Assembly (NCBI RefSeq): GCF_900230225.1
Contig: NZ_OCNH01000005.1
Coordinates: 248,001-312,000 of the forward strand
Reading direction: 5' to 3'
Length of the DNA stretch: 64,000 nucleotides
Origin: Spirosoma fluviale
Lineage (GTDB): Bacteria > Bacteroidota > Bacteroidia > Cytophagales > Spirosomataceae
The notes beneath the pieces were generated by a model. The model was not told the origin of the DNA, searched no databases, and worked only from the letters and a program-made list of their open reading frames with translations. The translations under genes were made by a program, and so were the position numbers. Position 1 is the first letter of the stretch; each line of letters opens with the position of its first letter. This document shows, piece after piece, positions 2,951-59,421 of the stretch.

Positions 2951-2987
2951 AAACGGCCGCGTTGACATGTCAACGCGGCCGTTTTTT
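2951..2987 (+). terminator. lpdA terminator
   Basis: A perfect 34-base palindrome (2951-2984) of AAACGGCCGCGTTGAC and its complement around ACATGT ends in TTTTTT. It begins 23 bases after the lpdA stop. Confidence 0.9.
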
Positions 2988-2988
2988 A

Positions 2989-3055
2989 TGTAGTACCGAC
3001 CGTCCCGGTCGGGTGTGAAAAGATAACTCACCCGACCGGGACGGTCGGCACTACA
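2989..3055. repeat. Dispersed palindrome, GTAGTACCGACCG family, copy 1
   Basis: The arms TGTAGTACCGACCGTCCCGG and its complement (27 bases each, one mismatch) flank a short A-rich loop. Related elements are at 47777-47871 and 59302-59379. The element sits between the lpdA terminator and the convergent glycosyltransferase gene. Confidence 0.85.
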
Positions 3056-3063
3056 CAAAACTC

Positions 3064-8781: not shown

Positions 8782-11700
8782 TTGCGTTATAATCCTGCCT
8801 ATCAGAAAAATCCTGTGGAAATCCCGGTCCAGACTGTATTAAAGACATTCCGTCGACGCTTAACCAACCTCAGCAGCCGTAATCGGTCGCTTTTACTGAC
8901 AAGCTTACCGGCTGGTCAATATCTGGATTTACAGGAAACGGATTTCCTGCTCAACAAACCGGCCTTCACCATTATTACCGACCTGATTGGTCGGAAAAGC
9001 TCGATATCGTTGTGCGATGTGCTCGACCCCCGTCAGGAGCGCAGCAACGAAGTAAGCAAAAAACTACGGCGTATTGACCGAACCGCCCGTTTTATTGAAG
9101 AGGAGCGGGGCACGGAAGATTTATACGTGGGCTGGCCTTTTGTAAAAGGTAAATTTCTTGATGAGTCGGTGGTTCACGGGCCGCTTTTGTTCTTCCCCGT
9201 TCAGATTGAGCAGCAGGGTAAATGCTGGAAACTTACTCGTCGGGGCGATGAGCTGGCGTTTCTGAATCCAACCCTTTTACTGGCCTACGGGCAATTCAAT
9301 CAGATAAAGCTCACGGAAGAAGTCATCGAGAAATCCGTCGATGATTTCGACCGCGACCCGCTCGTATTTCGTACTCAACTCTACGAATGGCTCAAAGCCA
9401 GTCCGCTGGAGCTGAATTTCAATCAAGAGCTGTTCACCGACAAACTTCAGTTTTTCAATAAACAAAGTGCCAAAGACCTCGCCCAGCTCGAACATTCCGG
9501 CGAGTTAAAACTCTACCCTGAAGCCGTTCTTGGCATATTTCCGCAAGCGGGATCGTTCCTGGTCCCTGATTACGAGAAGCTGCTAGAAAGGAGCGAGGAG
9601 CGAGGAGCGAGGACGGGGCCGCCCGGCGGTGAGGAGCCGTCCGGTGGTGAAGAACCATCCCGCGGGCGGGAGCTAGTAGTTGGTGAAGAACTCTCCAACT
9701 CACTTTTTTCTTTTTTGCTCCCGGACGGCTCCTCACCGCCGGGCGGCCCCGTCCTTGCTCCTCGCTCCTCGCTCCTTAAAGAGCGCCAGCTCCACACCCC
9801 CCTGCCTCTCGATGCGTCGCAGGAGACGGCGGTTCGGGCGGTGAAAGAAGGGCAGTCGCTGGTGGTGCAGGGACCGCCGGGAACGGGGAAGTCGCAGCTG
9901 ATCGCGAATCTCATGGCCGACGCGGCAGCGGCCGGGAAACGAGTGTTGCTGGTGTGTCAGAAACGGGCCGCGCTGGATGTTGTACAGCATCGTCTTGAGG
10001 AAGTGGGCATGGCTCCCTTTCTGGCACTGGTACACGATTTCCAGAATGACCGGCGGGCGCTTTTCACCCAGATCGCAAGCCAGATTGAGCGGATCGACGC
10101 CTATCGTCAGCAGAACAATGGCCTAAACGCCGTTTTGCTGGAGCGGGATTTCGACGTGGAGAGCCGCCGGATTGACGACGCCATTGCCGAGTTGCAATCC
10201 TTCAAAACGGCTCTGTTCGACACCGCTGAAAGTGGCGTCTCCGCCAAAGAGTTGTACCTGACATTGCTTTCCGGTGACAGTTATCAACAGCTAATCGATC
10301 TTAATGGTAGTTATCCACAGTTTCGTCTGGATAATGTGGATAACTATCGGCAACGCTTAACCAATTATGCAGCTTATCAACAGGCATTAGGCCTCAATCA
10401 TAGCTGGGCGGATCGGGTTAATTTTTCGTCATTTACCAATGCCGATTTAGGTAAGGCAGATCAAACCATTATAGGTTGGCAGCAAGTCCGACAAATAATT
10501 ATCGACCAAATGACGACTCTCCTGGGTCAGCCACTTTCGCTTACCAACCTTCTGAATTGGCAGGCGCATGATTGGGAGTTAACGGCTCTTTTGCATCTTC
10601 TCGATGCACCCGACGCTTCTAGATTATGGGCAACTACCCGGCATTTACTGGCCAATACCGCTCACTCGGTTCTAATTATCGACGAAACACGGTTCGATCA
10701 ATTGGCCGAACGTTGGGAAGAAACTTTACTGCCGCCTGGCCCGGAAACTTCATTATCGACCAGTGAATTAAGGGCTTTTCGTGATCTTCTGGCTGATGCC
10801 CTGAGCGCCCGGTCGTCGTGGGTGAGCTGGAACTGGTGGCAGTTGACCCATTCGGGAAAGACGCAACTTCAAACGGTTGTCTCGGCTAACGGCCTGACGC
10901 TTTCCGAATCCGATTTGCAAACCCTTGCCACAAAGGTTAATCAGCGAATTTTGCTGGAAGCGATACGTCACGAAGCCAATTCATTACTGGCCGGTTTGTC
11001 GCTCACCGAGGCTCCGGAGAGTTTACGGCTTCTGCATCGTGCGCGCCATCTGGCCGAACGCTTAACGACCCTGACCGTCTTGCGATCATTGCCTGAAACG
11101 CATTGGCAGACGCCTACAGTATTTGCAGAGAGTGTTCGAACGATGAGCCAACTGGCCACTACGGTTGCCCGGCAACAGGCTGAATCGGCCACGTACCTCA
11201 CGGCTGAACAACTGGTGAAAAGCTGGGAAGATACTGTCTATGCTGCCGAACTCCGCCGAACACTTCGGGCTGATTTCGATTTGCTCGTTGAAGCAGATCG
11301 CTTGCAGGAAGGCTTTTCTACCGTTGAACGAACGGTTATTGACCAATTGAGTACCCACAAACCCGAACGTTGGGTTGACATATTCATGGATAGCCTGCGG
11401 ACCGCGTGGCTCGATCATATTGAGCGACAATATCCTGAACTTCGTGCCGTATCATCGCTTAAAATGGCCCAGCTTGAACAGACGTTACAGGCCAGTATTC
11501 GGCGGAAACAGGCATTAAGCCGGGAAAACCTGCTGGTTAAACTTCGGGAGCAGACGTATCGAAACCTGACGTTCAACCGCCTGAACAACGTGGTTACCTA
11601 CCGCGATCTGCAGCATCAGGTGACTAAAAAACGCAGTGTGTGGCCGGTACGGAAGCTGATGGAATCCTTCGCCGATGAGGTGTTCAAACTGGTGCCCTGC

Positions 11701-12894
11701 TGGCTGGCTTCGCCCGAGTCGGTATCGGCAATGTTTCCGCTTCGGGAAGGACTTTTCGATCTGGTCATTTTTGATGAAGCCTCGCAGTGCTTTGCCGAGA
11801 ATGGCATTCCGGCCATGGCGAGGGGCAAGCAGGTCGTCATTACCGGCGACAGCCAGCAGCTTCGCCCGAGCGATCTCTACCGAATCCGCCTGGATGATGA
11901 GACCGACGAGGAAACGCCAGCCGCCCTCGAAGTGGAGTCGTTACTTGAACTGGCCGCTCAATACCTGCCGCAGGTGTCGCTGACCGAACACTACCGGAGC
12001 CATTCGCTCGATCTGATCACCTTCTCGAATGAGCATTTTTACCAAAATAAACTGTCGTTGCTACCGCATTTCGACGACATTAACCGGCGTGAACCGGCTA
12101 TTCGGTACATGAACGTGAAAGGCGTCTGGCAGCATAATACGAACCGGGCCGAAGCAGAGGTTATTCTAACCCTCCTCGACAAGCTGGCGGTTGAGCTTCC
12201 CGGCCGCTCTATTGGCATTGTTACGTTCAACTATCCCCAACAGCAATTGATTCAGGACATGCTGGAGGGAAGTGTAGCCGGGCAACCCCAGGCTGCAGAA
12301 CCGCCCCGAAGATATCCGGCGTCGCTCTTCGTCAAAAACATTGAGAACGTACAGGGTGATGAACGGGACGTTATCATTTTCTCCGTTGGCTACGCACCGG
12401 ATGAGCGCGGCCGCTTGGCTATGCAGTTTGGTAGCCTAAACGCCAAAGGGGGCGAAAACCGACTCAACGTCGCCGTGACGCGGGCGCGGGAGCGGGTGTA
12501 TGTAGTTACCAGCCTCTGGCCCGAACAACTTACCGTAGCCGATACGGCCAACGACGGCCCCCGATTCCTCAAAGCGTACCTCACCTACGCACTTGATGTG
12601 GCGCAGGAGCGGTTTCGACCAATGCCCAAACCACAACAAATTATCCCATCGGGGACGTTGTTAAAAGATAAATTGGCTGCTCAGCACACCAACTGGCAAC
12701 CTGAACTTCCCTTTGCCGATCTGACGGTGAAGGCAACGAATGATACGTATGAATCCATCATCCTGACTGATGACGATGCCTATTATCAGCAGACGACGAA
12801 GCAGGCTCATGCGTATCTGCCCATGGCGTTGCAAGGCCGAAACTGGCCCTTTCAGCGCATCTGGAGCCGTGAATTCTGGCGGGCAAATACATAG
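8782..12894 (+). CDS. Large UPF1-like superfamily 1 helicase, DUF4011-type
   Basis: The 1370-residue protein has all SF1 helicase motifs: Walker A QGPPGTGKSQL (about 364-371), Walker B/motif II DEASQ (998-1002), motif III VITGDSQQLRPS, motif IV TEHYRSHS (about 1068-1075), motif V NVQGDERDVI and motif VI NRLNVAVTRARERV (about 1226-1239). The N-terminal part (RRRLTNLSSRNRSLLLTSLP) resembles the domain found in AAA_11/AAA_12 helicases. About 600 residues between Walker A and DEASQ are helical. No ATG is available; the start is TTG at 8782 or GTG at 8815, downstream of an in-frame stop at 8758. Residues about 269-332 are encoded by a palindromic insertion (see 9588-9777). The role is unknown; RNA/DNA remodelling is inferred. 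Confidence 0.85.
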   Translation: MRYNPAYQKNPVEIPVQTVLKTFRRRLTNLSSRNRSLLLTSLPAGQYLDLQETDFLLNKPAFTIITDLIGRKSSISLCDVLDPRQERSNEVSKKLRRIDRTARFIEEERGTEDLYVGWPFVKGKFLDESVVHGPLLFFPVQIEQQGKCWKLTRRGDELAFLNPTLLLAYGQFNQIKLTEEVIEKSVDDFDRDPLVFRTQLYEWLKASPLELNFNQELFTDKLQFFNKQSAKDLAQLEHSGELKLYPEAVLGIFPQAGSFLVPDYEKLLERSEERGARTGPPGGEEPSGGEEPSRGRELVVGEELSNSLFSFLLPDGSSPPGGPVLAPRSSLLKERQLHTPLPLDASQETAVRAVKEGQSLVVQGPPGTGKSQLIANLMADAAAAGKRVLLVCQKRAALDVVQHRLEEVGMAPFLALVHDFQNDRRALFTQIASQIERIDAYRQQNNGLNAVLLERDFDVESRRIDDAIAELQSFKTALFDTAESGVSAKELYLTLLSGDSYQQLIDLNGSYPQFRLDNVDNYRQRLTNYAAYQQALGLNHSWADRVNFSSFTNADLGKADQTIIGWQQVRQIIIDQMTTLLGQPLSLTNLLNWQAHDWELTALLHLLDAPDASRLWATTRHLLANTAHSVLIIDETRFDQLAERWEETLLPPGPETSLSTSELRAFRDLLADALSARSSWVSWNWWQLTHSGKTQLQTVVSANGLTLSESDLQTLATKVNQRILLEAIRHEANSLLAGLSLTEAPESLRLLHRARHLAERLTTLTVLRSLPETHWQTPTVFAESVRTMSQLATTVARQQAESATYLTAEQLVKSWEDTVYAAELRRTLRADFDLLVEADRLQEGFSTVERTVIDQLSTHKPERWVDIFMDSLRTAWLDHIERQYPELRAVSSLKMAQLEQTLQASIRRKQALSRENLLVKLREQTYRNLTFNRLNNVVTYRDLQHQVTKKRSVWPVRKLMESFADEVFKLVPCWLASPESVSAMFPLREGLFDLVIFDEASQCFAENGIPAMARGKQVVITGDSQQLRPSDLYRIRLDDETDEETPAALEVESLLELAAQYLPQVSLTEHYRSHSLDLITFSNEHFYQNKLSLLPHFDDINRREPAIRYMNVKGVWQHNTNRAEAEVILTLLDKLAVELPGRSIGIVTFNYPQQQLIQDMLEGSVAGQPQAAEPPRRYPASLFVKNIENVQGDERDVIIFSVGYAPDERGRLAMQFGSLNAKGGENRLNVAVTRARERVYVVTSLWPEQLTVADTANDGPRFLKAYLTYALDVAQERFRPMPKPQQIIPSGTLLKDKLAAQHTNWQPELPFADLTVKATNDTYESIILTDDDAYYQQTTKQAHAYLPMALQGRNWPFQRIWSREFWRANT
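9588..9777. repeat. 190-bp palindromic element inserted in frame inside the helicase gene
   Basis: Two 57-base arms (9588-9644 and 9721-9777) are reverse complements with a single mismatch. They begin AAGGAGCGAGGAGCGAGGAG and end in CCTCGCTCCTCGCTCCTT. The 76-base centre has its own small repeats. The element is translated without a stop into a Gly/Pro/Ser/Glu-rich stretch between the DUF4011-like part and Walker A. A 19-base motif CTCCTCGCTCCTCGCTCCT is shared with the intergenic element at 52174-52388. Confidence 0.9.
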
Positions 12895-18348: not shown

Positions 18349-20151
18349 TTAAGGTAATAAGACCTGATTGATTACGTGTACAATGCCGTTGCGGGTTATT
18401 ACATCGCCGATTACTACGTTCGAAGGAGTTGCATTCCCATTTCCTTTAACCGTTATGGCCTGATTAGGCCCCACGGCTACCAGAACATCCAGACCCCGTA
18501 AGGTCGTTACTTGTCCACTACGTAACGTAGACGAAAGTTCGCGTCCTGCCACAACATGATACGTCAGGATACGGGCGAGCACATCCGGATCTGCCGCCCG
18601 AACAGCCTCGATTGTCGGGAAGCCCGCTGCCTGAAACGCACTATTAGTTGGCGCAAAAACGGTTAAGGCACCCGCCGAGGCAACTGTTTGCACCAGTCCG
18701 GCCCGTTGCAGAGCGGCTACCAGATACGTCAGATTCGGATTAGCTGCGGCCACTTCGGCCAGATTTCCGGTAGGCGGAATAAGCACTTTGTTGATGACAT
18801 GAATAACCCCGTTGGTTGCCTGTATATTGGCTTGTTCAACAAATATGCCGTTTACCGAGATGTTTTGCCGTTTGGCAACGAATACTTCATCGCCCTGAAG
18901 CGTTTTGTAGCCCGTAACGTTCGTTGACAGGATTTGGGTTGGGAAACGGTTGCCAACAACGTGGTAAAGGAGAATGTTACGCAATACGTTTACATCGGCG
19001 TTGTTGATGGCGTCGGTATTAGCAAAGCCAGCCGCCTGAAAAGCCGCATCCGTTGGCGCAAAGACAGTCAGGTTTCCGGTTGCCAGCGCACCGGCAAGTC
19101 CGGCTTTTATCACGGCGGCTTCCAACAGGGAGAAGGCAGGATTCGCTACCACAATATCTGTGATGGATGTTGTTATGGTGCCGCCATCGGGGAGTAAAAC
19201 CTGGTCAATCACATGAACTACCCCGTTTGTTGTCACTATATCCGACAACAGAACAGACGCTGGCGAACTGTTGCCCAGCCCCTTCACTGTTGCTTTGGCG
19301 GGTGTTTTGGTTGTTGCCAGTGCGTTGCCCTGAATGCTTGTGAGGCTTCCTTCACTAAGCTGAGAGGAAAAGAAACGACTCCGAACAATGTGATAACGGA
19401 GAATGCGGCCCAGCACGTTTGGATCGACGGCTCTGATCGATTCTATAGTTGGAAAGCCAGCGGCCATAAAAGCGGCATTAGTTGGCGCAAATACCGTGAA
19501 CCGTTCACTTAGCAGAATCTGTAAAACATTGATCTCTCCCTGACTGGCACGCTGAACAGCCGCCACCAGATAGGTGAGATTAGGATTGGCAACGGCCACC
19601 TCGACGGTGTTCCCGGCGGGGGGTAGCAGCACTTTGTCGATCACGTGAATAACCCCGTTGTTGGTGTTCAGGTCCGCTTGCGACACCGGGACACCATTTA
19701 CAGAAAGACCTCCTAACCGGGTGGCAAATACTTCCTGGCCCTGTAGCGTGGTAAAGCCCGTCAGGTTTTCGGAAATCCGGTCTTCGAAGAACCGTTCTGT
19801 CCCAATAACATGATAGAGCAGAATGTTACGCAGTGCGTTTACATCAGCATTGTTAATGGCATCGGCATTAGCAAACCCGGCCGCCTGAAAAGCCGCATCT
19901 GTTGGGGCAAAGACAGTCAGGTTGCCACTAGCCAGCGCATCTGCCAGTCCTGCTTTTATCACCGCAGCTTCTAATAGAGAAAAATTAGGGGAATTGACAA
20001 CGACTTGAGTAATTGTTTGATTGAATTGAATCCGGGCACCAGATTTCCGGGCTGGTTCCTGTGGTTGAATGGCCCTGTCGCAGGCACCAATGGTTAGCAG
20101 AGTCAGGAAGAGTAGCCCTACGCATTGCGAAAAAAGGGTTAAGTGTTTCAT
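18349..20151 (-). CDS. Lipoprotein with four fasciclin (FAS1) domains
   Basis: The 600-residue secreted protein has a lipobox (LFLTLLTIGAC, Cys about 24) and four tandem FAS1 domains of about 135 residues each. Each carries the H1-like box TVFAPTDAAFQAAGF (or TVFAPTNAAFMAAGF, TVFAPTNSAFQAAGF) and the H2-like NGVIHVIDKVLLP. Domains 1 and 3 are nearly identical over long stretches, as are the endings of 2 and 4, which points to duplication of a two-domain unit. FAS1 proteins mediate adhesion or matrix contacts. The gene is monocistronic, convergent with the DUF4249 gene. Confidence 0.93.
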   Translation of the reverse strand: MKHLTLFSQCVGLLFLTLLTIGACDRAIQPQEPARKSGARIQFNQTITQVVVNSPNFSLLEAAVIKAGLADALASGNLTVFAPTDAAFQAAGFANADAINNADVNALRNILLYHVIGTERFFEDRISENLTGFTTLQGQEVFATRLGGLSVNGVPVSQADLNTNNGVIHVIDKVLLPPAGNTVEVAVANPNLTYLVAAVQRASQGEINVLQILLSERFTVFAPTNAAFMAAGFPTIESIRAVDPNVLGRILRYHIVRSRFFSSQLSEGSLTSIQGNALATTKTPAKATVKGLGNSSPASVLLSDIVTTNGVVHVIDQVLLPDGGTITTSITDIVVANPAFSLLEAAVIKAGLAGALATGNLTVFAPTDAAFQAAGFANTDAINNADVNVLRNILLYHVVGNRFPTQILSTNVTGYKTLQGDEVFVAKRQNISVNGIFVEQANIQATNGVIHVINKVLIPPTGNLAEVAAANPNLTYLVAALQRAGLVQTVASAGALTVFAPTNSAFQAAGFPTIEAVRAADPDVLARILTYHVVAGRELSSTLRSGQVTTLRGLDVLVAVGPNQAITVKGNGNATPSNVVIGDVITRNGIVHVINQVLLP

Positions 20152-22255: not shown

Positions 22256-22268
22256 TATCTTTTTGGCT

Positions 22269-22319
22269 TAGGGCTTGGGGCATAGGGTAGGAGTTTGAAC
22301 CCCTGTGCCCCAAGCCCTA
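22269..22319. repeat. Inverted repeat between rplQ and rpoA
   Basis: Perfect 14-base arms TAGGGCTTGGGGCA / TGCCCCAAGCCCTA with a 23-base loop sit in the rplQ-rpoA gap. A weaker relative lies at 34654-34719. Confidence 0.75.
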
Positions 22320-22329
22320 TTCCCAAATC

Positions 22330-28570: not shown

Positions 28571-29089
28571 TTAACCGTTAAATACTTTAGCCAGGCTGAT
28601 CTGACGCTGGAACGCTACCTGGTGAGGTAAACGCATTTTCAGCAGTGCAGCAAGCGTTGCTTTTACTACGTTGTGTGGGTTTGACGAACCTTTCGATTTA
28701 GCCAGGATGTCGTGGATACCAGCTGATTCAAGAACAGCTCGCATAGCACCACCAGCAATCACACCTGTACCAGGAGCAGCTGGTTTCAGCAGGACAAAGC
28801 CACCGCTGAATTTACCTTCCATCTCGTGAGGAACTGTACGCTTCAAAAGAGGAATCTGAACCAGATTCTTTTTCGCGTCTTCCACGCCTTTGGCGATAGC
28901 GTCCGTTACTTCATTGGCCTTGCCTAATCCGTAACCAACGACACCGTTACCGTCGCCAACCACGACAATAGCCGAGAAGCTGAACCGTCGGCCACCTTTT
29001 ACCACCTTCGCTACGCGGTTGATGGCTACAACCTTTTCTTTAAGGTCGGCTTCGTTAAATTTTGTCGGTCTTGCTGAATTGATGTTCAT
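28571..29089 (-). CDS. rpsE: 30S ribosomal protein S5
   Basis: 172 residues with the double-stranded RNA-binding N-terminal part ([20 protein letters not shown]) and the S5 C-terminal domain ([20 protein letters not shown]). It acts in decoding accuracy. It is tightly coupled to rplR. Confidence 0.98.
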
Positions 29090-37935: not shown

Positions 37936-38118
37936 GTCGCTACGCGACTTGGAGCCTTAATGGGATACGGTTAGGCTACAGACATTTCGTCGCTAACGCG
38001 ACATCCTGGGGTACTTTTGAGTTAGTTTAATCCGGGCAAAAGGGTAACGTTTCTGTCGCATAGCGACCTGATGTTTGTAGCTCAAGATAGTAACCAGTTT
38101 CTTAAGTCGCGTAGCGAC
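37936..38118. repeat. Left REP cluster beside the transposase
   Basis: Four short hairpins: GTCGCTACGCGAC (37936-37948), GTCGCTAACGCGAC (37989-38002), GTCGCATAGCGAC (38055-38067) and GTCGCGTAGCGAC (38106-38118). The first two have the reverse orientation (R), the last two the forward (F). The spacing within each pair is 51-53 bases. Confidence 0.9.
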
Positions 38119-38137
38119 GAAATACAAGTATCAGCCA

Positions 38138-38599
38138 CTATTCCAATGGCTTAAAGAGATAGCGATCATCATAGGGCACGTCAAACTTTTGTAAGAATGC
38201 TGTATACTCTTCTGCAAAAGTGCGCTTTCGATGATGCTCTTCCTGACTTAGAATATACTGTATGACCCCATCAATCTGTGAGTGGCCATACGAAAAGGCA
38301 CCATATCCAGATTGCCACTCAAAATATCCTTTGACAATACCCTTTTCGTTAATCCACTTCGATGAACTGCCTTTGAGGTCTTGCATCATATCAGAAATGG
38401 ATTGTTTAGGATTGATGCCTATGAAAACGTGAACATGATCTGACATTCCATTGATGGCTAGTAATTTATGCCCCTGATTTTGCACGATGCCAGTCATATA
38501 TCTGTACAAATCTTCCTTCCAAGGTTGTAGTATGAGGCCATAACGGTGCTTGACCGCAAATACGGTGTGTAAATAAATTTGAGTGTAGGTGTTTGGCAT
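38138..38599 (-). CDS. REP-associated tyrosine transposase (IS200/Y1 type, RAYT)
   Basis: The 153-residue HUH-superfamily single-strand transposase has the metal-binding HUH motif HVHVFIG near residue 70 and a catalytic Tyr in GVIQYILSQEEHHRK near residue 118. The family opening NTYTQIYLHTVFAVKHRYGL follows the chosen ATG at 38599; the frame extends upstream to 38620 without support. It is flanked on both sides by paired REP hairpins, as in RAYT/REP systems. No second gene (tnpB) is present. Confidence 0.9.
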   Translation of the reverse strand: MPNTYTQIYLHTVFAVKHRYGLILQPWKEDLYRYMTGIVQNQGHKLLAINGMSDHVHVFIGINPKQSISDMMQDLKGSSSKWINEKGIVKGYFEWQSGYGAFSYGHSQIDGVIQYILSQEEHHRKRTFAEEYTAFLQKFDVPYDDRYLFKPLE

Positions 38600-38627
38600 G
38601 TTTCTTAGACGGGGATACATCCGTTCG

Positions 38628-38812
38628 GTCGCTATGCGACTATAAATAGGGTTGATTCATCTTGGTGCTACAACTATCAAGTCGCTAACGCGACTAAGTG
38701 GGGGGATGAGTAGGTAATTGGGTTTAGTTAGCGGTTAACGCTTTAGTCGCGTTAGCGACCTAATGTTTATAGCCTATTATAGTTCAACTACGTTCTCAAG
38801 TCGCGTATCGAC
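38628..38812. repeat. Right REP cluster beside the transposase
   Basis: Four hairpins in the same R R F F order as the left cluster: GTCGCTATGCGAC (38628-38640), GTCGCTAACGCGAC (38681-38694), GTCGCGTTAGCGAC (38746-38759) and GTCGCGTATCGAC (38800-38812). Pair spacing is 53-54 bases. Together with the transposase this fills the 384-base gap; nothing else is seen there. Confidence 0.9.
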
Positions 38813-43685: not shown

Positions 43686-43705
43686 ATAAGTAGCGCTACT
43701 AATAA

Positions 43706-43760
43706 AAAGCGGCACTGGGAACACAATGAATAGATTTCTTCGTGTTCCCAGTGCCGCTTT
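43706..43760 (+). terminator. Terminator after the M16 pair
   Basis: Perfect 19-bp stem AAAGCGGCACTGGGAACAC / complement with a 17-base loop, 20 bases after the stop. Confidence 0.75.
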
Positions 43761-43773
43761 GTGTAAATAACCC

Positions 43774-43781
43774 TACCTTTG
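43774..43781 (+). promoter_or_regulatory. Candidate promoter of the B12 operon
   Basis: TACCTTTG fits TAnnTTTG just upstream of the cobalamin riboswitch. Confidence 0.5.
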
Positions 43782-43789
43782 CTGTCGAG

Positions 43790-44049
43790 TTATCGGTGCC
43801 TGATGCTGTTTCGTAGCAGCTTTCAAGGCTTAAAAGGGAAGTTGGTGCAATACCAGCGCTGTCCCCGCAACTGTAAGTCTTACCTAAAATCGGTTCAATC
43901 TACATGACCACTGCGCTGACTATCAGCATGGGAAGGTCCGAACCGACAAGACGAGCCAGGAGACCTGCCGAAGACCATCCGTTGTTCTGGCGTTCGGAGG
44001 AAACGCCCCAACCGCGTGCTGTCGGTCACTTTGGTGCGCTGGCGTTTAT
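43790..44049 (+). promoter_or_regulatory. Cobalamin riboswitch and expression platform
   Basis: The B12 box AGCCAGGAGACCTGCC is exact at 43954-43969. The conserved core GTTGGTGCAATACCAGCGCT and GTCCCCGCAACTG are at about 43841-43872. The aptamer spans roughly 43790-43985. Downstream, GGCGTT (43989) can pair with AACGCC (44002-44007), and a second GGCGTTT (44041-44047) immediately before the start can pair with the same AAACGCC. This suggests a translation or termination switch. It controls the btuB operon. Confidence 0.93.
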
Positions 44050-47060: not shown

Positions 47061-47791
47061 GTCGCCAGCGAGCCATCATGAACTGGAGCGGGGGCAAAGA
47101 TTCGGCCCTCGCTCTGTATCATAGCCTCCGTTCCGAGCGGTGGGATATACAAACATTACTAACCAGCGTCAACGAACAGTTTGGCCGGGTGAGTATGCAC
47201 GGCGTTCGTACGGAGCTGCTGACTGCCCAGGCCGAGCGGCTCGGTATTCCGTTAACCTTATTAAAGCTCCCCGGCGATGTGTCGATGGAGGAGTATGACG
47301 ACCGGATGCAAACGACGCTTCAGGCATTGACGCAACAGGGTAGTACCCATTCTATTTTTGGGGATATTTTTCTCGAAGACCTGCGTCAGTACCGGGAGGA
47401 GCAATTGAAGCGGGTAAACATCATCGGCGCGTTTCCTCTCTGGCAACGTAACACCACCGAACTGATCCATGAGTTTGTGGATTTGGGCTTCCGGGCGGTG
47501 CTTGTCTGCGTCAATGACAAGCAACTTGGTGCGGAGTTCGTCGGGCGTGAGCTGGATCTGGATTTATTAAGAGACCTCCCCAAAAACGTCGACCCTTGTG
47601 GCGAAAATGGCGAGTACCACTCGTTCGTGTACGACGGGCCTATCTTTTCAAGCCCCATTTCCTTCACAAAAGGCGACATCGTCCGCCGAACGTATGCGCC
47701 CTCTGGCGGCACCGACTGCCATTCCGATCAGGCCGATAGTCGTTGGGATACGGGCTTCTGGTATCAGGATTTAGTAGTGCCGGGCTTGTAG
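47057..47791 (+). CDS. Dph6-like ATP pyrophosphatase (diphthine-ammonia ligase family)
   Basis: The 244-residue PP-loop enzyme has SGGKDSALAL at about residues 11-20 and the Dph6 signature EHTFGEDG-like NVDPCGENGEYHSFVYDGPI near 175-195. The GTG start overlaps the previous stop (GTGA) and is preferred over ATG 47078, because RAIMNW completes the first beta strand. Bacteria do not make diphthamide, so in this B12-regulated operon it may act in cobamide salvage or remodelling. The TAG stop lies inside a palindromic repeat. Confidence 0.82.
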   Translation: MSRQRAIMNWSGGKDSALALYHSLRSERWDIQTLLTSVNEQFGRVSMHGVRTELLTAQAERLGIPLTLLKLPGDVSMEEYDDRMQTTLQALTQQGSTHSIFGDIFLEDLRQYREEQLKRVNIIGAFPLWQRNTTELIHEFVDLGFRAVLVCVNDKQLGAEFVGRELDLDLLRDLPKNVDPCGENGEYHSFVYDGPIFSSPISFTKGDIVRRTYAPSGGTDCHSDQADSRWDTGFWYQDLVVPGL

Positions 47792-47871
47792 TACCGACCG
47801 TTCCGGTCGGGCGATTATGACTATTTTTTATATACACCCGACCGGGACGGTCGGTACTACAAGCCCGGCAC
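47777..47871. repeat. Dispersed palindrome, GTAGTACCGACCG family, copy 2
   Basis: 35-base arms (47777-47811 and 47837-47871) with one mismatch: GTGCCGGGCTTGTAGTACCG and onward, and its complement. The left arm encodes the last codons (VPGL) and stop of the Dph6-like gene. Confidence 0.9.
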
Positions 47872-48083
47872 CACAGGCTCGTATTCTCCAACAGCACTAG
47901 CGGCAGGTAGCTATTCCAGGTGGAGGTGAACTTCACTTCGTTCAATAAGCCCGTCAAGTGGGTGCCCAGCACAACTACCGCAGCCCAGCGCCAGACGGGT
48001 AACTGTTGCCAGACAACAGGCTGTACAAATGGAGCCAGTTCCTGAAAGGGGATACTGATAAAACGAATCAGCTGTGGCATCAT
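47872..48083 (-). other. Possible truncated membrane-protein remnant
   Basis: On the minus strand, ATG at 48083 opens MMPQLIRFISIPFQELAPFV with a hydrophobic stretch (WRWAAVVVLGTHLTGLLNEV). It enters the palindromic element at about residue 71 and then continues antisense into the Dph6 gene. It may be a gene broken by the palindrome, or chance. The remaining part of this 463-base gap (48084-48254) shows nothing clear. Confidence 0.25.
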
Positions 48084-51634: not shown

Positions 51635-52165
51635 ATGCAACGTAGAGAAGCCCTACAACAGGCAGCCTTAATGATGGGGGTTATGCTATCGGCTCCCACG
51701 CTGGCGGGTGCTATGGGGCGCGTGACCAATACGGGTCCAAGCCTAGCCGTCTCGCCCGATCAGGAAGCCTTGCTGGCCGAGGTAGCCGATGTGATCATCC
51801 CAACTACCAGCACACCAGGAGCCAAAGCGGCCGGTGCTGAAAAATTCATTGTTCGGGTTATGCGTGATTGCTACCCCAAAGCCGATCAGGAAAAATTTTA
51901 CGCAGGTTTGGCCAAGCTGGATGCCGACAGTAAAACTAAATTTGGCAAAGGCTTTGCCGCACTGGAAGGAGCCCAGAAAATTGAGATGGTCAAACAAACC
52001 ATGACTGCCGACAAACCCTTCTTCCTGCGTATGAAAGAGCTAACCACTACCGGGTACTTTACCTCCGAAATTGGTGCCACCAAAGCCCTAGAATATCTAC
52101 CCGTTCCGGGCCAGTTTAACGGGTGTATGCCCATGAAACCCGGCCAGAAAGCGTGGGCATTGTAA
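51635..52165 (+). CDS. Gluconate 2-dehydrogenase subunit 3 family protein
   Basis: 176 residues. A Tat-type start (MQRREALQQAALMMGVMLSA) is followed by the subunit 3 domain (EVADVIIPTTSTPGAKAAGA; GYFTSEIGATKALEYLPVPG). It is the small subunit that accompanies membrane or periplasmic GMC-type sugar dehydrogenases, consistent with the GMC gene that follows. Confidence 0.9.
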   Translation: MQRREALQQAALMMGVMLSAPTLAGAMGRVTNTGPSLAVSPDQEALLAEVADVIIPTTSTPGAKAAGAEKFIVRVMRDCYPKADQEKFYAGLAKLDADSKTKFGKGFAALEGAQKIEMVKQTMTADKPFFLRMKELTTTGYFTSEIGATKALEYLPVPGQFNGCMPMKPGQKAWAL

Positions 52166-52173
52166 ATAGTATG

Positions 52174-52388
52174 TAGGAGCGAGTAGTGAGGAGCCATCCG
52201 GCGGCATTCATCATGCCTCAGCCCTCCTCACTCCTAGTACTCACTCCTAGTACTGACTCTTAACAAATGAGTAAGTAGTAAGCAGTGAACAGGGTGATCG
52301 CGCCATCAAACGGCATGCCGGTCCGCCGACCGGCTGAGGCTGCGGTGCGGTCAGCCCTCCTCACTCCTCGCTCCTCGCTCCTAACTCC
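52174..52388. repeat. GAGGAGCGAGGAG-family palindromic element, intergenic copy
   Basis: The left side carries TAGGAGCGAGTAGTGAGGAG, the right side CTCCTCACTCCTCGCTCCTC and an inner partial copy near 52210-52250. The 19-base CTCCTCGCTCCTCGCTCCT at 52364-52382 is identical to part of the element inside the helicase gene. The arms are imperfect. Confidence 0.75.
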
Positions 52389-52398
52389 TCAAAAAAAC

Positions 52399-58000: not shown

Positions 58001-58214
58001 CGGTAGCTCCATGGCCGGCATCGTGTCCAGCAAAACCGAAACCGACCTGCAAATGAAGTTTCCGGGGGGCGTGGTCCAGAATTACAAAATGGCCGACGTC
58101 GTTTCGATGAAGCAGATGGAAAACTCTATGATGCCATCCGGTTTACAGGAAGCCATGAGTACCAAAGATTTAGTGGATTTAGTAGAATATTTAGCCAGTT
58201 TAAAAAAGAAGTAG
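55092..58214 (+). CDS. PVC-type heme-binding CxxCH protein (propeller, HEAT repeats, cytochrome c)
   Basis: The 1040-residue exported protein has a membrane-anchor or signal helix near 14-34, then a membrane-dehydrogenase-like beta propeller (NPTDIDVDARGRVWVCEAYN to APDGSLIIADWYDP, about 60-450). HEAT-like helical repeats follow (about 480-890), then a cytochrome c domain with CNICH at 917-921. Such proteins oxidise sugars or alcohols, or pass electrons from them, at the periplasmic face. It fits the GMC and isomerase neighbours. The TAG stop touches a long palindrome. Confidence 0.9.
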   Translation: MNRSVLAKRSAFTRRVIALSAAGLVVGGAFIGAYQNKNLNGASNPYLTSLFAQLSDDDKHDPKYAVGSLNVAAGLEATLFAAEPMLTNPTDIDVDARGRVWVCEAYNYRPAINGNPTRKEGDRIVILEDTNGDGKADVTKVFYQDPSIESPLGIWVQGNKVIVSDSPNVWVLTDENGDDKADKKELLFTGIGGEQHDHGMHTFVFGPDGKWYFNFGNAGEQLLDKDGKPVIDIATGKAINKQNFKQGMVFRCDPDGKNVELLGQNFRNNYEVAVDSYGTLWQSDNDDDGNKGVRINYVMEYGNYGYTDELTGAGWQANRENIEPEIPRRHWHLNDPGAMPNLLQTGAGSPTGMIVYEGNLLPEVFRNQMIHCDAGPNVVRSYPVQKDGAGYKAEIVNVLEGARDQWFRPADVCVAPDGSLIIADWYDPGVGGHQAGDQNRGRVYRVAPPNSPYKMPKVDVTTVDGAIEALQSPNMSIRYAGWQSLRTMDKKAEKALAKLYKTSANPRMQARALWLLSKLDKGQKYIETALKSDNSDMRITALRAARELKGDITPYIKQLVNDPEPQVRRECAIALRKNLSTGPQSPEAPALWAQLASQYDGKDRWYLEALGIGADGSWDTYYTAWVKQMNNDPLANAGGRDIVWRARTKESIPMLAKLAGDQSVNVSQRLRYFRAFDFNPAALEKSNALLGILQANSNSTDVTKLALRHLDPDFVKNSPVATTALTKVMNDVYGTPEYIDLVSRYEPTSENARLKQLAVQKASDGMGRDAARQLLKQKGASMAWEVINGNDADAAANMLVALRRVGNKESIDMLKTVALDEKKPATLRREATRSLGGSSEGADLVVALLKSGDIKGDFKKAAVQGVSNDWRKSIRQQAASFLDGGQSAEGKKLPNIQELIAMNGDAARGVSVFKNNCNICHQVNGEGMDFGPKLSEIGAKLPKEGQYLAILHPDAGISFGYEGWEVKFKDGSSMAGIVSSKTETDLQMKFPGGVVQNYKMADVVSMKQMENSMMPSGLQEAMSTKDLVDLVEYLASLKKK

Positions 58215-58318
58215 AACCGGGATTTACCTGATTTTTTTGACCGACTATGATTAAATTAATGGCTTTTCTGGAAAGCAAAAATCATAGTCAGTCAGAGAAA
58301 TCATAAAAATCCCGGTTC
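58214..58318. repeat. Long imperfect palindrome starting at the CxxCH stop codon
   Basis: GAACCGGGATTT at the left and AAATCCCGGTTC at the right enclose further paired segments (GACTATGATT-type and complement). The element fills the gap before the TIM-barrel gene. Confidence 0.75.
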
Positions 58319-59301: not shown

Positions 59302-59379
59302 ACCGAGCGTTGGCCCGGCGAGCGTCCCGCTCGGGCGTTTTGAGTAAGCAATTCGCCCGAGCGGGACGGTCGGTACTAT
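59302..59379. repeat. Dispersed palindrome, GTAGTACCGACCG family, divergent copy 3
   Basis: GCGTCCCGCTCGGGCG and CGCCCGAGCGGGACGGTCGG form the stem; the right end GGTCGGTACTAT matches the other copies. It is followed by a stem AAAAAAGGGGAATC with a complementary GATTCCCCTTTTTT (59381-59421) that may terminate the convergent gene. Confidence 0.75.
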
Positions 59380-59380
59380 G

Positions 59381-59421
59381 AAAAAAGGGGAATCTGACTG
59401 TTTAGCCGGATTCCCCTTTTT
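59381..59421. terminator. Bidirectional terminator
   Basis: AAAAAAGGGGAATC and GATTCCCCTTTTTT form a 14-bp stem with T-runs on either strand, between the TIM-barrel gene and the convergent glycogen-binding gene. Confidence 0.85.

Follow-up and report, generated by a model that had tools for sequence, protein, structure and literature searches.

A 190-bp near-perfect palindrome is read in frame inside a helicase gene of Spirosoma fluviale. We interpret it, with a probability of roughly two in three, as an STRR-like heptad-repeat palindromic element that has been spread and rewritten at fixed sites and is tolerated in flexible linkers. As judged from sequence comparison, the element was shown to be read in frame within a linker of variable sequence between two domains, to have both genic and intergenic relatives, and to be matched by differing heptads at the same site elsewhere. 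The whole stretch of DNA analyzed (64,000 nucleotides, hereafter the window) is part of a 7.8-Mb genome, and the features discussed below are listed in Table 1.

Table 1. Coordinates of the palindromic element, its host gene, and related elements in the window.
Feature	Position	Strand	Remarks
Host gene	8782..12894	+	1370-aa DUF4011/AAA_11/AAA_12 superfamily-1 helicase; TTG start as listed
Palindrome left arm, 57 nt	9588..9644	+	
Segment between arms, 76 nt	9645..9720	+	In-frame
Palindrome right arm, 57 nt	9721..9777	+	1 mismatch vs left arm
Left-arm tandem heptads GGAGCGA	9589..9613	+	Arrays of GGAGCGA encode cyclic RSEERGA in all three frames
Right-arm matching heptads TCGCTCC (first is TTGCTCC)	9755..9776	+	Such arrays encode cyclic SLLAPRS in all frames
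Stem core GGACGGGGCCGCCCGGCGG, left arm	9611..9629	+	
Stem core GGACGGGGCCGCCCGGCGG, right arm	9736..9754	-	
rpoA-rplQ spacer palindrome	22261..22327		Heptad type GGGCTTG/GGGCATA
Composite intergenic elements, GGAG heptad type	52160..52392		Present in two sister species, altered

The sequence-only reading of this DNA had described two 57-base arms with a single mismatch inside the helicase open reading frame, with no stop codon, and these were recovered as described. The arms are 98% complementary and enclose a 76-nt loop. The palindrome encodes residues 269–332, just before the AAA_11 domain that begins at residue 343. Its outer stem consists of tandem GGAGCGA units, and its inner stem is a GC-rich core. 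The RNA of the palindrome region was predicted to fold with −174.8 kcal/mol, compared to −92.6 ± 4.7 kcal/mol for 200 shuffles (z = −17.5). This fold is very stable. The hairpin, with its one mismatch, is near-perfect rather than perfect as had been claimed. The palindrome score was 54 over the whole linker and 41 in the trimmed linker, and the latter value was reached by none of 200 shuffles (mean 7.8). Of note, the helicase resembles the anti-phage helicases ProA and Hhe (both below the NCBIfam cut-offs) and PADLOC PDC-S37, yet its orthologue was found in all 36 of the genus genomes searched.

The encoded segment is a variable and probably disordered linker. AlphaFold2 modeling of helicase residues 17–536 with 11 sequences yielded a weak model (mean pLDDT 60, pTM 0.45), in which residues 241–325 of the fragment, holding the element, had pLDDT < 50 and most blocks of the preceding domain had pLDDT of 71–88. 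The Walker A region of this model reached just 51–72, so low values also occur outside the linker. The helicase protein should tolerate the segment, for which a helicase function is unsupported.

Further copies of the arms exist in the genome, as the sequence-only reading had anticipated. Its 19-nt arm segment is present exactly at 52364–52382, where 28-nt matches of 89%–93% were found as well. A 42-nt stretch of the 57-nt arm is identical to another locus of the same genome. The stem core also occurs at 29034–29052 of contig C6; if one mismatch is allowed, 10 of the 36 genomes of the genus contain it. The stem units are tandem heptads GGAG(CG/TG/TT)A, with 219 of 225 units belonging to these three variants, and elsewhere in the genome the same design appears with GGAGCGA, GGAGTGA, and GGAGTTA units and various cores. 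Genome-wide, the heptad pattern gave 75 forward and 75 reverse matches. The reversed pattern, which served as a control although it overlaps with the heptad, gave 14 and 11. The heptad survey covered 100 pattern places and is incomplete, so the 47 distinct clusters (one of 48 was dropped as a duplicate sequence) are those examined. Of these, 41 were taken as intergenic and 6 as in frame in genes encoding the helicase, UvrA, MiaB (a name assigned on the protein of species G027), a FAD/Fe-S oxidoreductase, and two FG-GAP proteins. The copy at 29026–29144 of contig C6 has too few heptads for a cluster and was left uncounted. Two further candidates were not counted as genic because their frames were judged spurious: an in-ORF hairpin at L103, where the frame has 205 aa, and a heptad pair at L121, where it has 157 aa. 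A fixed-step sample (400 kb, drawn from three contigs together with the window) yielded 53 long hairpins of many types. Two of them were located in open frames, and only the helicase hairpin was convincing.

Several loci have the ends GTATTAGGAG...CTCCTAATAC in common. The peptide core ARTGPPGGEE was found in the helicase of this genome (G000) and of G027, in MiaB of G027, and in an Fe-S oxidoreductase paralogue of G009. The core is read alike in helicase, MiaB, and oxidoreductase, but no more than these three proteins share it, and pure heptad arms give the same peptide in every frame.

The window contains other repeats. GTAG-type palindromes (GTAGTACCGACCGTCCCGGTCGGG) are located at 2984–3060, 47774–47874, and 59319–59386; two of these three sites were comparable, and the sister-species stems there are altered, lengthened, or halved. 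At the 58214–58318 palindrome, G009 has a different sequence with the same end ACCGGGATTT, and G027 has a short remnant. An Rfam scan of the 64-kb window returned nothing but a cobalamin riboswitch (43777–43986). Immediately before it lies a hairpin with arms of 41 nt and 80% complementarity (whole feature 43690–43986), which is present in both sister species. Two direct-repeat pairs at 18693–19983, spaced 846–849 bp (one of 182 nt with 84% identity, the other of 122 nt with 75%), are perhaps tandem paralogues.

The helicase site was compared across the genus, where 28 of 30 loci could be parsed. The stretch from PQA to Walker A ranges from 74 to 117 residues. Palindromes in trimmed linkers exceeded shuffles at p < 0.01 in 6/28 and at p < 0.05 in 8/28 species, and the other 20 linkers had none at p < 0.05. 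The two sister species carry a related palindrome with other arms at this site. G027, the nearest species, has a diverged copy of the same element, and G009 a shorter palindrome with other arms, the left of which also pairs with the right flank (TTTAA). The G021 palindrome is of the GGAGTGA type, the GGAG-like hairpins of G032 and G007 are weaker and are cut into by linker trimming, and the linkers of the remaining species look like different heptad types or none. The four genomes with strong GGAG-type helicase palindromes are four of the five richest in that heptad (n = 34, p = 1e-4; p = 0.0015 with the hairpins of G032 and G007 added), and these p values overstate the association because three of the four genomes are sisters. 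Relative to G027, the left arm has 3 changes and the right arm 6; three positions changed on both sides, of which one is compensated, and these numbers are too small to support an argument.

Among the orthologues retrieved, the more distant ones (L060–L064) lack residues 269–332, in line with the sequence-only reading. A clean insertion into an otherwise constant protein does not describe the data, as the linker varies across the parsed orthologues and the sister palindromes have other arms. The claim of a dispersed family with genic and intergenic copies is supported. Because helicase orthologues carry related, other, or no palindromes at this site, the site is better described as one at which heptad elements arise repeatedly or have their sequence replaced than as the target of one jump.

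A rival explanation is a classical miniature transposon (MITE- or RPE-like), which some transposase would have inserted once in the ancestor of the three sister species and which would then have decayed. The long terminal inverted repeats, the dispersed copies, the ends shared by several loci, and the presence of the element in G000, G027, and G009 are all consistent with it. However, the types at the same site differ between species far beyond what decay would give, no target duplication was seen, and no Y1 transposase (the only class sought) was linked to the element; we regard this explanation as rather unlikely. The genome has eight Y1 transposase (Y1_Tnp) genes. Seven of them lack any hairpin of 7-nt periodicity within 1.5 kb. 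Near the eighth lies a single hairpin with arms of 19 nt and a periodicity of 0.58, which looks terminator-like. A REP/RAYT system was also rejected: heptad palindromes flanking the Y1 gene were absent in seven of the eight cases and doubtful in one. No insertion with a clean empty site or a target duplication was seen in the comparisons, where the flanks are too variable to define ends. A Y1 transposase gene (PF01797) at 38243–38587 of the window has GTCGC(T)AACGCGAC hairpins on its flanks (37975–38776) in a REP-like arrangement, and a GTAG-type palindrome (GTAGTACCGACCGTCCCGGTCGGG) also flanks the Y1 gene in locus L229.

Four genic loops, chosen because one genome showed an element there, were analyzed for 7-nt periodicity in linkers of 45 nt or more, with length-matched coding windows as controls. 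The periodicity mark of at least 0.42 was reached by 9/28 helicase, 10/22 UvrA, 9/28 oxidoreductase, and 6/20 MiaB linkers (34/98), compared to 0.05%–0.33% of the coding windows. The 19 helicase linkers below the mark include that of this genome (0.40), which has a long core. In UvrA, the loop before SHT(I/L)DFLTG contains GGAG palindromes in G000 and G009, whereas in G022, G023, and further species the heptads seem to be of other types; palindromes at p < 0.05 were found in 8 and not in 16 of the 24 loci parsed (out of 30). In some species, a second UvrA loop that also varies (loop 1, e.g., L164, G026) contains tandem inserts, for example GGQNAASPAGRGRNAASPTGRQ. The length of the oxidoreductase stretch is 35–61 residues (28/30 loci), and that of the MiaB stretch is 26–61 residues (22/30 loci). 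The MiaB core occurs in one arm only in G022 and in both arms in G027. No clean empty site was found at the MiaB or oxidoreductase loop among eight species aligned for each, and the loops without an element are themselves variable.

The linkers vary, and many show a 7-nt period with units that differ. This would also fit a purely local product of polymerase slippage on 7-nt units and hairpin-templated repair under weak linker constraint, with convergent heptads and no movement between loci. A tie between heptad slippage and DNA polymerase has been proposed (Mrazek et al. 2007, as described in PMC4679880). However, a local process hardly accounts for the 42-nt exact match between two loci or for a core not made of heptads that is shared by three unrelated proteins and by intergenic sites, and we consider it unlikely.

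A change of heptad type in place was evident in the rpoA-rplQ spacer, for which 33 genomes had a match and 30 yielded loci. Where the window has its palindrome, G027 and G009 have an array of the GGTTTAC type, with flanks 95%–98% identical; by the ungapped measure, these two arrays are not palindromic beyond shuffles. The spacers contain a heptad array with a best period of 7 or 14 in 29/30 species (none in G031), compared to 16.5% of shuffled spacers, and palindromes at p < 0.05 were found in 18/24 against dinucleotide shuffles and in 25/30 against base shuffles. The array types, labelled by eye, required 16 changes on the best tree (30 species, 723-column protein tree, 12/27 inner branches weakly supported), compared to 18.0 on average for shuffled labels, of which 25/200 were as low as 16. 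The heptad type is thus nearly independent of descent, with the array itself being kept. The number of GGTTTAY arrays per genome did not predict the type in this spacer: G029, with 61 hits, has another type there. In other genera of the family, a best period of 7 or 14 was found in 11/30 spacers, with ~5 heptad arrays recognizable by eye. Many of these genera have a conserved motif before rplQ, GTAATAGGTG...AACCGCAGCGATA...ACTTACGAA or AGTATTCTGTAGCGCG...CCGCTCGAAGC (L296–L325), at the place of the Spirosoma heptad arrays (window 22256–22329). The motif looks like a ribosomal-protein leader; an Rfam scan of nine such loci gave one hit, far below the gathering score, and no credible match.

The persistence of rpoA-rplQ arrays in 29/30 species, 25 of them palindromic beyond shuffles despite changed sequence, could also reflect a selected RNA hairpin in the message, e.g., a pause or processing site that in the helicase would lie between protein domains. 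The very stable helicase fold is consistent with such a role, but a significant palindrome occurs in a minority of helicase orthologues (6/28 at p < 0.01), which makes this explanation quite improbable. Long palindromes are hard to assemble, but an assembly error or a decayed gene is hardly credible given the open 1370-aa frame, the orthologue in 36/36 genomes, and the palindromes at the same site in two related genomes, one of them within an 8.08-Mb contig.

The heptad element reading is helped by the coding properties of the units. One-unit 7-nt arrays encode an identical cyclic peptide in all frames (for GGAGCGA, RSEERGA or, on the other strand sense of the stem, SLLAPRS), since 7 is not divisible by 3. 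Repeated GGAGCGA is stop-free, whereas repeated GGAGTGA and GGAGTTA contain stops. CG units made up 15/25 of the units in genic clusters and 57/200 in intergenic ones (Fisher p = 0.003), and open frames were counted in 20/36 for genic compared to 46/246 for intergenic clusters, with two of the genic clusters being short, which favors open frames.

We propose that copies spread or convert one another through a hairpin intermediate, either by template switching at the replication fork or by an enzyme acting in trans, and that one arm may be recopied from the other. A genic copy would survive only if the frame is kept, no stop arises, and the loop is flexible; pure heptad arrays would ease this survival, since the cyclic peptide of a one-unit array does not depend on the frame. 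The 42-nt match between loci and the shared ends hint at spread or rewriting through hairpins, and the MiaB core in one arm (G022) or both (G027), together with the arm-flank pairing in G009, hints at arm recopying. Against a simple spread model stand the lack of an empty site and of a linked Y1 gene, the unpredictive array number, and the single compensated change. It is possible, though we hold this tentatively, that Spirosoma has an active process that swaps hairpins in place, keeping site and fold and replacing the heptad type, both between genes and within proteins. If so, in-place exchange would amount to wholesale linker rewriting driven by DNA structure, with frame-independent heptads making the product translatable.

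Among known systems, REP/RAYT (Y1) elements share dispersed palindromes in a genome with eight Y1_Tnp genes. They differ in that, next to seven of the Spirosoma Y1 genes, hairpins either belong to other types or are missing, and the eighth case is doubtful. Pairing of opposite-arm units into a stem, an STRR-like feature, was found in the helicase element and in the rpoA-rplQ spacers. The heptanucleotide repeats of cyanobacteria are named STRR, and their unit sequences may be like those of Spirosoma. In the literature search, which covered titles and the start of abstracts and few subscription journals, none of the matches listed dealt with palindromic elements of Spirosoma or reported in-frame palindromes combined with heptad replacement. 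According to two accounts (PMC4679880, PMC4692102), heptanucleotide repeats occur in Cyanobacteria, Beggiatoaceae, and a few Bacteroidetes, mostly between genes, and the repeating peptide from TAACTGA arrays was noted by MacGregor. Such repeats (TAACTGA, GGGAATC) are likewise tandem 7-nt units with few variants, mostly intergenic. In contrast to the Spirosoma elements, they are described mainly as direct, some as inverted, and in-frame palindromes in conserved proteins are absent from the passages of those accounts that were considered. In the mitochondria of Nematomorpha, translated genes contain inverted repeats that are long and perfect (PMC6649704); their arms encode conserved protein regions, whereas the Spirosoma arms, which are part of a dispersed family, encode a linker that is variable and probably disordered.

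The nearest precedents are the Rickettsia palindromic elements (RPEs) for in-frame insertion and the Nostoc trnL P6b heptad stems for in-place replacement. RPEs are palindromic, lie in frame inside unrelated genes, and form several families with homologous copies in related species (PMC10969869, in part). The elements are of similar size, and six proteins of this genome likewise carry in-frame heptad clusters. The likeness to RPEs drawn by the sequence-only reading therefore holds as a way of working, whereas the heptad build is a different plan: the Spirosoma arms are tandem 7-nt units, 41 of 47 examined copies are intergenic, and the same loop holds different sequences in different species, RPEs being set beside them by description. 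In the Nostoc tRNA-Leu(UAA) intron, P6b is a 7-nt-repeat stem (Class I TDNGATT, Class II NNTGAGT) in which one repeat class repeatedly replaced the other at the same site with the structure kept (PMC4476775, in part). Spirosoma shares the 7-nt stem and the repeated in-place replacement of one class by another, but P6b concerns one RNA site of cyanobacteria and two repeat classes, whereas in Spirosoma many genomic sites, several types, and coding loops are involved. In-frame palindromic elements have thus been known chiefly from Rickettsia, and heptad-stem replacement in place from one Nostoc intron site. In Spirosoma, the two occur together, in several unrelated conserved genes and across ~30 species, so that two puzzles, how palindromes enter proteins and why bacteria prefer 7-nt repeats, can now be traced site by site. 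For the coding regions there is a plain reason why 7-nt units are suited: as long as the unit is free of stops, it yields a single peptide whichever frame is read.
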